Assembly (NCBI GenBank): GCA_023623175.1
Contig: JAMNXU010000027.1
Coordinates: forward strand, 1-64,000
Length of the DNA: 64,000 nt
Direction of reading: 5' to 3'
Origin: Bacillota bacterium
Lineage (GTDB): Bacteria; Bacillota; Clostridia; Acetivibrionales; JAMNXU01
The notes beneath the pieces were generated by a model. That model saw only the letters and a list, made by a program, of their open reading frames with translations. It had not been told where the DNA came from and did no database searches. Below are positions 12,798 to 60,183 of the stretch, one piece after another. How positions within the stretch are numbered: position 1 is the first letter of the stretch; every line of letters begins with the position of its first letter. A program made the translations under genes and the position numbers.

Positions 12798-12869
12798 TTT
12801 AATTCTTATGAAGCATGAAAATTGAATTCTTGTAAAACATAAGGGTTGAATGCCTGTAAACATGAAGGA
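12798..12869 (+). repeat. Degenerate 24-bp tandem repeat (3 units)
   Basis: Units begin at 12798, 12822 and 12846. Each starts TTTAATTC or TTGAATTC/TTGAATGC, then CTTGTAAA-like sequence, then ACAT(A/G)A, and ends in a purine run. It lies in the spacer between the DUF5107 gene and the first Gfo/Idh/MocA gene. Confidence 0.55.
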
Positions 12870-15900: not shown

Positions 15901-15976
15901 CAATTCTTATTTTCAACCGGTTTTGCCGGTTTATTTATGCCGTTTTTTCAGTTAATTTGCCGGTTTACCACCTGGT

Positions 15977-16075
15977 TTGTATTTATTTTGGCTTGTATTT
16001 ATTTTAGTTTGTATTTATTTTACCGGTTAGTTTTATGTTTAATGTTTTACCAGTTAGTTTTATGCTTAATGTTAT
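15977..16075 (+). repeat. Two adjoining tandem arrays (16-bp x3, 27-bp x2)
   Basis: TTGTATTTATTTT recurs at 15977, 15993 and 16009 (period 16). Directly after it, a 27-bp unit starting ACCGGTTAGTTTTATG repeats at 16022 and 16049 with few changes. The arrays fill the spacer before the third oxidoreductase gene and end just before its ribosome binding site. Confidence 0.85.
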
Positions 16076-41752: not shown

Positions 41753-41820
41753 GTTGCCTCCTGGATGTTGTGATATGTCTATAACAAAAATGTCGAATAA
41801 ACAACTAATAAAGTTTAGTG

Positions 41821-41970
41821 AAGCAAGGCGTACCGCTGTTGTGTAAAATATGGCGTATTGATGTTGGGTAAAGTATGGTGTATCGATATAGATTAAGTAT
41901 GGTTCATCAATGTTGGGAGAAATAAGGCGCATCAATGTTAAGCTAAGTATGGTGCATAATAATCCGAGTT
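41821..41970. repeat. Degenerate 25-bp tandem array (6 units)
   Basis: Units start at 41821, 41846, 41871, 41896, 41921 and 41946, each exactly 25 bp. They share the outline (A/T)AGTATGG(T/C)G(T/C)AT followed by an (A/G)ATGTTGGG-like stretch and TA. The array fills the spacer upstream of the M14 gene and runs into the 3' end of the sulfatase gene. Confidence 0.8.
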
Positions 41971-43407
41971 AAGTCTTGCGTATTGGGGGAGGCCAATGCA
42001 GGCCCCGTTGCCCGCTCAGGCCATAGTCAGGTTTCGGAATGAATTCCTGGTTTGGAAGGCCGACGAGTTTTCCGTACTTAACCCAGTTTTCATCGCCCTT
42101 GTACAGATTTTTAATTAGGAAATCGACGAGCTTGTTTTGAATATCGGAGTATTCTTTTTTGTGGGCAAGGTTTTTCAATTCGTTTGGATCGTTTTCAAGA
42201 TCAAACAGCTGGATGTAATTGCCCACGGGATAATATATGAGCTTGAACCGGCCGTCGTGTACCATGCGCGTTGCGAGGGCGTTTTCGCTTATTTCGCCGT
42301 AAAGCATATCCCTTTTCCTGGTTGACACGGCTGAAATGCCTTCGACATGGGACGGTATTTCCAGGCCGCACAGGTCAAGAAGAGTCGGCATTATATCCGC
42401 AAGGCACACAAGCCTGTCGTCAACGGTACCCCTCATTGACTTGAGAGGCTTCCCGGATATGATTAGGGGAATATTGGCGGAGTATTCATACATTACCCTT
42501 TTTGCGACCATGTTGTGATTGCCCAGCATATCGCCGTGGTCGCTGGTAAAAAGAATAATGGTGTTATTCAGAAGATTTTCTTCCCTCAGCGTGCCGATCA
42601 GTATTCTCAGCTGGTGGTCAATATGGGTGCACAGGGCATAGAATGCTTTTCTTGCTGCCAGTATATCTTCCTTTTTATACATTTTGCATGAATTTTGCAA
42701 TCCTTTCAGAGGATAGACATCATCGTCGACCCAGTCTCCCACGAATGGCTCATCAATTCTGCGTCCCTGTACATATCGAGATAGCTCTGAAGAGGCACAA
42801 GGGGCGGATGGGGATGGCAGTAGGAAATATAGAAAAACGCAGGACGCGTTGGATCCTTACGCTTTATCATTTTTGCCATTTCCCTGGTGGCCCAGTTAGT
42901 TACATGGGCTTCTTCGGGCAAATGCCACGGCCGCGTGTAATACATGTTGTTTCCCATGCCGTGAAGGTATTCCCTGCCTGCGTAACCATGCTCTCCAAGC
43001 CATATCTGGTAATCGTCGACGGTGCCGTACTGGTAGCGGGCTTCTTCCTGCAGGATCACATCATCAAAACCTATGCGGTTTCTCTGGGGATAGACATGCA
43101 GCTTTCCGACTGCATAAGCCTGATACCCGTTGTCGCGAAAGGTCTGGGCAAGAGTTTTAACATCGGGCATGGGAAGGCGTTCGGAATAAACCCTGTCCCC
43201 ATGGCTCCTGGGTGACAGCCCGGTCATCAGCGATCGCCGCGCCGGTATGCAAACAGGACATTCGGAATAGCAATTTGTAAACCGTATGCCATCCCGTGCA
43301 AGGGAATCAAGGGTAGGAGTCTTGATGACGGGATGCCCTGCTGCTCCAAGCAGAGGGGCAGACCAGTGATCGACCGTTATCATCAGAACATTGGGTTTGT
43401 TATCCAA
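41969..43407 (-). pseudogene. Sulfatase with a single-base frameshift
   Basis: Two frames together make one cysteine-type sulfatase. The N-terminal part (43407 to about 42763) has the start VLMITVDHWSAPLLGAAGHP and the formylglycine motif CPVCIPARRSLMTG (C53xPAR). The C-terminal part (from about 42763 to 41969) contains LFTSDHGDMLGNHNMV and LFDLENDPNELKNLAH. The join is near 42763-42765, where YRD runs into RRIDEPFVGDW if one base is restored; GACGC would be GACCGC. It is decayed, phase-variable, or a sequence error. The upstream UroD-like gene lies 195 bp away. Confidence 0.85.
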
Positions 43408-43440: not shown

Positions 43441-43543
43441 TGAATCAAATATCTTTTAAATAAATACCTCAATAAATTATCTTTTTAAATACTTCAATTA
43501 GGTATCTTTTTAAGTATTACAATTAATTATCTTTTTAAATATC
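43441..43543. repeat. Degenerate 25-bp tandem array (3-4 units)
   Basis: Units at 43469, 43494 and 43519 are 25 bp each and share ATTATCTTTTTAAATA or close variants. A looser fourth copy is at 43441-43468. It lies between the sulfatase and UroD-like genes. The sequence is unrelated to the 41.8 kb array, but the period is the same. Confidence 0.75.
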
Positions 43544-44750: not shown

Positions 44751-45851
44751 TTATGTCAGGGCTTTTTTTACAAGATCCATTCTTGACAGGATTCTCTGAA
44801 GCAGGTAATCCACAAGGGTGATCGCCACCATGGCTTCGACTGCAATGACCGCCCGTGGCACAATCACGGGATCATGCCTTCCCTTAATAATGATATCGAT
44901 GTTTTCGCCGTTTGTACTAACTGTTTTTTGCGATTTATAAATCGATGGTGTCGGTTTGATCGCAGCCCTTAGAATAATAGGGAAGCCTTCGCTGATTCCG
45001 CCGCTGATTCCGCCGGAATTGTTGCTGAATTTTCCCAGGTTGCCGGCGTCATCGAAGTACATAATGTCATTGTTTTCCGATCCTTTAAGGCGCGATGCCT
45101 CAAACCCGTTGCCGAATTCCACGCCCTTGACTGCTCCCAGGGACATTACGGCCCTCGCCAGCATGGCGTCGAGCTTTTCAAATACCGGTTCACCCACGCC
45201 TGCGGGCAATCCTTCGACAACACATTCCACGATGCCGCCGGCCGAATCCCCGCAAGCCTTGATTTCAGCGAGAAACTCCTCGGCTCTCCTGGCTGCTTCG
45301 TGATCGGGCATGCGAACATTGTTTTTATATATTTCCGAGGCATCAAAATTACTGCGGTCAATGAATATATTTCCTATGGAGAGGGTGTAGGACATGACCC
45401 TGATTCCCAGTTCGGAAAGAACTTTTTTGGCCACGGCGCCTGCAGCGACGCGCGCTGCGGTCTCACGGCCCGAAGAACGGCCGCCGCCGCGGTAATCACG
45501 GAATCCATACTTTTGATCATATGTGTAATCGGCATGCCCCGGACGGTAATACTTTGCGATCTCGCTGTAATCCGGCGAGCGGGCGTCGGTATTCCATATC
45601 AGCATGGAAATCGGGGTTCCGGTGGTCCTTCCTTCAAAGACGCCGGAAAGAATTTCGACATGGTCCGCTTCTTTCCTGGCCGTGGAAAAAGGCGACTGCC
45701 CGGGCTTCCGTTTGTCGAGGTCGGCCTGGATATCCGCTTCGTCAAGCGGCACACCTGCCGGACAACCGTCAATTACAACGCCGAGGGCCTTGCCGTGGGA
45801 TTCGCCCCAGGTTGCTACCTGAAAATTCTTGCCGATTATTGAACCCGACAT
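44751..45851 (-). CDS. aroC: Chorismate synthase
   Basis: Converts 5-enolpyruvylshikimate 3-phosphate to chorismate, using reduced FMN. The signatures are TWGESHGKALGVVIDGCPAGV near the N-terminus, GRSSGRETAARVAAGAVAKK in the middle and FKGGISEG-like segments (NNSGGISGGISEGFPIILR) later. The length of 366 residues is typical. AGGAGG lies 7 bp before the ATG at 45851. It is isolated here from other aro genes. Confidence 0.93.
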   Translation of the reverse strand: MSGSIIGKNFQVATWGESHGKALGVVIDGCPAGVPLDEADIQADLDKRKPGQSPFSTARKEADHVEILSGVFEGRTTGTPISMLIWNTDARSPDYSEIAKYYRPGHADYTYDQKYGFRDYRGGGRSSGRETAARVAAGAVAKKVLSELGIRVMSYTLSIGNIFIDRSNFDASEIYKNNVRMPDHEAARRAEEFLAEIKACGDSAGGIVECVVEGLPAGVGEPVFEKLDAMLARAVMSLGAVKGVEFGNGFEASRLKGSENNDIMYFDDAGNLGKFSNNSGGISGGISEGFPIILRAAIKPTPSIYKSQKTVSTNGENIDIIIKGRHDPVIVPRAVIAVEAMVAITLVDYLLQRILSRMDLVKKALT

Positions 45852-46165: not shown

Positions 46166-46628
46166 AATTTTTTGTAATCTTATTTACGCATTGTTTTAAT
46201 AGTTATGGTTTATTTTATTATTTTTTCATACTATTAATAATTTAAATCTATATTACTTTATACTATTAATAACTTTAAATCCTATTAATAACTTTAAATC
46301 CTATTATAACTGCTCGGCGAAAAATCCTTTCATTGCTGTTCCGACTATTATTTGCTTTAACTGTAAAATTGGCTGATATTATTGTCCTAATGCCATTACC
46401 GACCTGATGTTGATGATGTTCCGTATATTACAGCCAGGACTGTTATTGCAGCCCTGACTGAAATCGCATTCCGACCGTATCAGCTCTGATCCATGCATTT
46501 CCGGTTAAGTTCCATAATAGCAAAAAGATACACAATGTGATATGATTGAAAAAAAGCGGGAACATGATCATGATTGGGAAACCGGGGCGGAATTGCCTTA
46601 TATCTCTGGAATTCGGTGAGGTCGGCAA
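46166..46628 (+). repeat. A+T-rich spacer with tandem repeats
   Basis: CTATTAATAACTTTAAATC is tandemly repeated at 46263 and 46282 (19 bp), with a looser copy at about 46231-46248 and a partial one after 46301. No gene is seen in the 460 bp before the response regulator. Confidence 0.7.
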
Positions 46629-50056: not shown

Positions 50057-50247
50057 GCAATATTTTTTCCACAGAAAGTATCAACTTGTCGCAGGACTTT
50101 CCCGTACTAAACTGCTGCAAGTAGTTGATTTAACCATGTTTCATTATATCGGCACCCAGTGATCCGATACTTGTAACATTTTCAGGTGACGAAAATCAGT
50201 TGCTTCTGAAATTCTGAGTCTTTCTTTCAATACTTAATGATTATTTT

Positions 50248-50289
50248 GGGGCAAACTATTTATTTTAAGGGCAAACTATTTTTAATGTA
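50248..50289 (+). repeat. 20-bp direct repeat upstream of the aldose epimerase gene
   Basis: GGGCAAACTATTT occurs at 50249 and 50269 (period 20) in the sequence before the start at 50352. TACAAT at 50302-50307 may be the -10 box of this gene. Confidence 0.5.
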
Positions 50290-52757: not shown

Positions 52758-53195
52758 CAAGTTAAATGCTCCGCCATCAGGGTAATATATGAAATATAAA
52801 TTATGAGATATATTGAGGTAAGTTGAAGTATGTTTTGGCAGAATAAACCGAACTGTGATACAAAGGGTTAAGGGAATTTCCGTAATCCAGGTTGCAGCTT
52901 TTTGAGAAAATGCAATAATGTATGAGTGATGGATGCATAGTGCATGATTGGTTGAATGCGCGGCAAACGGGCGGATTTAAACACGTTGATCCATAGTTAA
53001 TTTATTGTATTAAAACGACATTAACTTTTATAATGCGCAATAATCTGCGCAGTGCATGATAAAAGTACATTTACAAAATGTTCAGCGCGGTACTTGACCG
53101 AATTATACTTTCCGATGCACATGGCGCAAAAAAATGTTTAAACCTATGGACAATACAAGATAAATCAAGATAAATATACAACAAATGGAGGAATT
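52758..53195 (+). promoter_or_regulatory. Spacer with a promoter for the radical SAM unit
   Basis: About 440 bp without a gene. TTGTAT (53005-53010), 18 bp, then TATAAT (53029-53034) is a plausible sigma-A promoter for the TIGR03960 gene. Other parts, such as 52905-52965, contain short repeated motifs around GCAT/ATGCA, weaker than the clear arrays elsewhere. Confidence 0.45.
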
Positions 53196-58238: not shown

Positions 58239-59907
<1,669 letters not shown>

Positions 59908-59920
59908 ATTGTGGACAAAT

Positions 59921-60157
59921 GGGACACGGGGACGGTTCCTGTGTACCATTTGTGGGACAAGGTGACGGTTCTCGTGTACCATCTGTGGGACAAGGGGACG
60001 GTTCTCGTGTACCAAGATCAGCGAGACAAGGGAACGGCTTCTGCGTGCCTGGCAAGCGGACGGAAGAATTGTTACCGTGTCCCTTAACTATGCAAGTGGG
60101 ACAGAAGAACCGTCCCCGTGTCCCGGGGTTGGGACAAAAGAACCGTCCCCGTGTCCC
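59921..60157. repeat. REP-like array: 7 units of about 27 bp, two orientations
   Basis: Forward units at 59921-59947, 59954-59980, 59987-60013 and a weaker 60023-60049 begin GGGACA, contain GACGGTTC and end GTGTACC. Reverse-oriented units are at 60058-60083, 60098-60124 and 60131-60157 (GGGACA..GAACCGTCCCCGTGTCCC). The spacing is exactly 33 bp between the first three and between the last two. Single units have terminal inverted ends (GGGACA/TGTCCC), like REP sequences spread by RAYT transposases. Open frames across the array are repeat artefacts. Confidence 0.9.
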
Positions 60158-60183
60158 AGTTCAGGGAAAAGGAGAAAGATGAT

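Follow-up and report, generated by a model that had tools for sequence, protein, structure and literature searches.

The many short tandem arrays that lie between the genes in this stretch of 64,000 nucleotides (the window) belong to a real, unusual and genome-wide mutational signature, and they carry no sign of regulatory function. We think it probable that they are the marks of a mutation process acting throughout the genome, one in which short pieces of DNA are duplicated, some duplications grow and the resulting arrays decay. The window is contig 38 of the 39-contig, 2.85 Mb genome of an uncultivated bacterium, which is estimated to be 99.99% complete. An earlier note had proposed that so many unrelated arrays in spacers reflect one generating process and not a series of separate binding-site clusters, and this idea has held up well, being favoured by the excess of arrays, by the lack of relationship among their units and by their indifference to the orientation of the neighbouring genes.

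Arrays were scored by comparing each spacer with itself over lags from 8 to 70 bp, counting +1 for a match and -1 for a mismatch, the control being dinucleotide-preserving shuffles of the spacer, 400 for each array that the note had named. Six of these eight arrays beat all 400 shuffles. The degenerate array of period 25 and about six copies at 41813-41957, also found by TRF, has a score of 26 that none of the 400 shuffles reached; it is thus as real, and its units as degenerate, as had been claimed, but they are not exactly 25 bp long, since a single 1-bp slip interrupts the regular spacing. The array is flanked by an M14 carboxypeptidase gene and a split sulfatase frame. The sulfatase occupies a pair of minus-strand frames that overlap, one at 41969-42742 and the other at 42706-43407; both match part of the sulfatase domain, and the split at 41969-43407 is a frameshift that belongs either to the gene itself or to the assembly. 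The second period-25 array, described as three units, was recovered at 43461-43542 (3.2 copies, score 37, 0/400 shuffles; TRF score 113), and its repeat unit is unrelated to that of 41813-41957. Equally clear, each with 0/400 shuffles, are the arrays at 12798-12860 (period 24, about 2.6 copies, score 19), at 15973-16022 (period 16, 3 copies, score 28), at 16018-16073, which abuts the preceding one (period 27, 2 copies, score 25), and at 46231-46311 (46172-46306 in the shuffle test; period 19, 4.6 copies with indels, TRF score 99), within which two perfect 19-bp copies lie at 46263. The two-copy repeat of period 20 at 50241-50281, which had been placed at 50249, is marginal (3/400 shuffles for 50244-50281), and the period-23 array reported at 58464 finds no support, its score of 8 being equalled by 35/400 shuffles; the best array in that spacer is a weak one of period 15 at 58326-58359 (7/400 shuffles). 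In addition, a duplication scan and TRF pick out a perfect 10-bp tandem duplication at 53156-53175, with no homology at its junction.

The suspicion that this is a trait of the whole genome proved well founded. Our sample of the genome covers 1.21 Mb (42%) and holds 183 kb of spacer, delimited by long open reading frames, so that spacer boundaries are approximate; spacers with a dispersed GGGACA/ACGGTTC element were left out of comparisons between genomes. The sampled spacers contain 98 non-REP arrays with a score of at least 20, against 0 in shuffled spacers. With REP-bearing spacers excluded, this amounts to 52 arrays of that score per 100 kb of spacer, compared with 8.4 and 9.6 in the Ku-positive and Ku-negative sets that together make up 68 other genomes, and the host spacers are therefore some 5-6 times denser in arrays. 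Likewise, 21% of host spacers carry an array with a score of at least 15, as against about 5% elsewhere (p=4e-20). The density came out at 56 and 50 arrays per 100 kb when two distinct parts of the genome were taken on their own, variation among 20-kb stretches is modest (chi2/df 1.9), and five relatives, with 100 kb sampled from each and a relationship at the level of the order, have 0-14 arrays per 100 kb. Every class of identity between copies, from >97% to <70%, is enriched (2.9-9.7 fold), and so the process looks like a continuing one and not like a single old burst.

The arrays are not a dispersed repeat family, a possibility that we considered and set aside. Their units are mutually unrelated, as the note had said, with 93 of the 98 having no match elsewhere in the own-genome sample, and the array at 41813-41957 finds a single match in its own genome and no second one. 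Short arrays of a different kind occur in the same spacers. A REP-like palindromic element (TGGGACA...GGACGGTTC; TGGGACA..GGGGACGGTTCTC..) forms arrays at 59920-60014 and 60097-60170 in the window, and its short motifs are found in about 106 of the 692 sampled spacers; this element differs from the arrays discussed here in being a dispersed family whose copies are related to each other.

What did not survive is the expectation of a genome-wide peak at 23-25 bp. The periods in this genome are broad (median 23, interquartile range 18-31) and form a hump, of which the host-specific excess is greatest at 20-27 bp. Measured against 100 other genomes with the window excluded, and in bins that were picked after the histogram had been inspected, periods of 20-27 bp stand out most, with a 16-fold excess (54/544 versus 7/1063 spacers, p=2e-19); for longer periods the excess is 8 fold (28-39 bp) and 4 fold (40-60 bp), and for shorter ones, of 12-19 bp, it is about 3 fold. 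Periods of 20-27 bp also make up a larger share of all arrays in the host (61/167) than elsewhere (7/55, p=0.0007).

Could the arrays nevertheless be clusters of binding sites for regulators? Several of them do lie upstream of genes, and repeated operators with a spacing of 20-25 bp exist in bacteria. However, spacers with arrays are as common between convergent genes (23%) as between divergent (22%) or co-directional ones (21%), and arrays are depleted within 20-40 bp of starts and over the 20 bp that follow stops; this indifference to orientation and avoidance of gene edges argue against binding-site clusters. So do the lack of any motif shared between arrays and the periods themselves, which ignore the helical repeat, there being no phasing at 10.5 bp (p=0.2). 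We disregarded weak phasing at 11 and 12 bp, with p values of 0.04-0.05 before correction. Nor do three relatives share the array that lies upstream of the chorismate synthase gene, which counts against a regulatory reading as well. The closest chorismate synthases are those of Clostridiales metagenome-assembled genomes, at 72-73% identity, and the gene itself holds a perfect in-frame 12-bp tandem duplication at 44990-45015. Altogether we consider binding-site clusters an extremely improbable explanation, and the arrays themselves are probably without function. Within genes the picture is one of strong removal, as coding regions have 2.2 clean duplications per 100 kb, 23 times fewer than spacers, and in 14 of the 19 found there the unit is divisible by three.

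The elementary events are best seen in clean two-copy tandem duplications (identity at least 85%), of which there are 73 in 145 kb of spacer and 1 after shuffling. All 73 have units of 10-28 bp, and although units up to 100 bp were scanned none fell at 29-100 bp; the lower bound of 10 bp is simply the detection threshold, but the upper one is not set by the method. In other genomes, 248 kb of spacer yielded 31 such duplications, mostly of 10-19 bp and none of 20-27 bp. Their junctions bear directly on classical replication slippage, in which short direct repeats that are already present misalign; this is the textbook route to bacterial tandem repeats, was among the origins suggested by the note, and could indeed expand those arrays that have three or more copies (54/172). 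A duplication that arises between matching ends of a given length leaves the same number of extra matching bases at its junction. Among 22 perfect duplications with units of at least 10 bp, the extra was 0 in 12, 1 in 6 (18 of the 22 thus having at most a single base), 2 in 2, 5 in 1 and 6 in 1, which is near the chance extension expected without homology. Clean duplications as a whole have a junction excess centred on 0, and in simulations 0 bp of microhomology fits whereas 2, 4 and 6 bp do not; an excess of at least 4 bp, for example, is seen in 8-15% of high-identity pairs and would be seen in 78-93% with 4-bp microhomology. Recent duplications thus lack junction microhomology, and classical slippage does not explain the seeds. 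The loss of a repair gene, which we also considered as a cause, was rejected for the genes looked at, and the same inventory counts against slippage: MutS1, RecJ, the large subunit of ExoVII (XseA) and the 5' nuclease domain of PolA are all present. Three neighbouring MutS-like matches lie on contig 26 (G000 C26:55836-63598). We therefore regard slippage as a rather improbable source of the first duplication; repair of spacer DNA, the other origin that the note had named, is a possible one.

Later growth is another matter. In arrays of four or more copies, mean similarity falls from 0.77 to 0.71 and 0.66 at lags of 1, 2 and 3 copies, as would be expected of stepwise growth, with the proviso that selection on score favours similarity at lag 1. 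About a third of the high-identity two-copy repeats (17 of 53) are not predicted by a plain model of tandem duplication, since more than 3 bp separate their copies; some of these gapped pairs may be remnants of longer arrays.

One could also imagine that duplications arise here at an ordinary rate and pile up because repeats are deleted more slowly from the spacers. In keeping with this, perfect duplications with units of at least 10 bp reach only one to three times the frequency seen elsewhere (15.2 per 100 kb in the host; 4.9, 7.5 and 11.3 per 100 kb in the three sets used for comparison), whereas degenerate arrays are 4-10 times commoner than elsewhere. Yet the youngest class is enriched too when periods of at least 12 bp are considered (9 versus 2, 7.7 fold), and slow deletion would leave unexplained both the excess at 20-27 bp and the absence of clean units above 28 bp, so that we find it unlikely as the main account.

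The mutation process that we favour would accordingly have several steps, which rest on different kinds of evidence. Stretches of roughly 10-28 bp are copied head to tail at arbitrary sites with no need for matching ends, as the statistics of the junctions show; some of the duplications would afterwards expand into arrays of 3-7 copies, probably through slippage or unequal exchange among the copies just made; and all arrays decay by point mutation, as the spread of identities shows. Events in genes are mostly removed, with most survivors in frame, and those in spacers persist except near starts and stops, as the distributions described above show. The seed could come from a staggered double-strand break whose two ends are filled in and then joined, leaving the overhang copied, and homology-free junctions together with a bounded length would fit such fill-in end joining. 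Of the several molecular routes that can be envisaged this one strikes us as the likeliest, tentative as it is. The genome does encode Ku, an ATP-dependent ligase and a LigD-type PrimPol, as separate proteins in one operon on contig 19 (L131:16397-19676, L132:22-1092), and these might conceivably perform the fill-in joining. The operon is followed by an IS200-like transposase, and the stretches around it (L130-L132) are among the array-richest of those sampled. The presence of Ku, however, did not predict array density elsewhere (19.6 versus 24.8 arrays with a score of at least 15 per 100 kb, p=0.55), and hence end joining is not enough on its own to bring the arrays about.

A bounded length and absent homology would equally suit target duplications left by a mobile element, or by some other enzyme whose cuts are staggered by as much as about 28 bp. 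Against this, no element or footprint was seen between the copies, IS200-like transposases (the one family searched) number 3, which is not unusually many, and array density does not track REP content, all of which makes such a cutter very unlikely in our eyes. A link of the arrays to REP elements and Y1 transposases was likewise rejected, given the ordinary Y1 count and the lack of correlation with REP content.

For fill-in and joining there is an instructive parallel in mammalian cells, in which fill-in of complementary overhangs followed by Ku-dependent joining gives small tandem duplications that are independent of homology, as shown with Cas9 nickases and Pol alpha-primase (PMC8355091). 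Those duplications resemble the ones described here in spanning tens of bases, in needing neither repeats nor homology and in being explained by staggered breaks; the differences are that our host is a bacterium, that the case is made from standing sequence, and that Ku is not predictive in other genomes. Bacterial non-homologous end joining by Ku and LigD (PMC7719229, PMC8656161) is similar in gene content, as the host has Ku, the ATP-dependent ligase and the LigD PrimPol; we found no published link between this system and tandem duplications in spacers, and its suggested role here is our own proposal. Bacterial intergenic minisatellites, or VNTR loci, are similar in being head-to-tail spacer arrays of short units in 2-7 copies, but the host arrays are mostly of two copies, highly degenerate, bounded in unit length and far denser than those in 100 other genomes. 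The literature that we searched, with most subscription journals outside its scope, held no bacterial precedent.

What this means is that the spacers of this organism record a signature unlike that of slippage, made of homology-free duplications with a sharp limit on length. It is possible, if somewhat speculative, that duplications in this lineage come from an enzyme-driven mutator whose own workings cap their length near 28 bp, perhaps PrimPol end joining at staggered breaks; such a mutator would have continually rewritten the spacers and be a bacterial counterpart of the eukaryotic fill-in pathway of tandem duplication. The signature furnishes a caution, namely that repeated units in spacers should not be taken as operators, and through it one can begin to test by which enzymes bacteria create new non-coding sequence.
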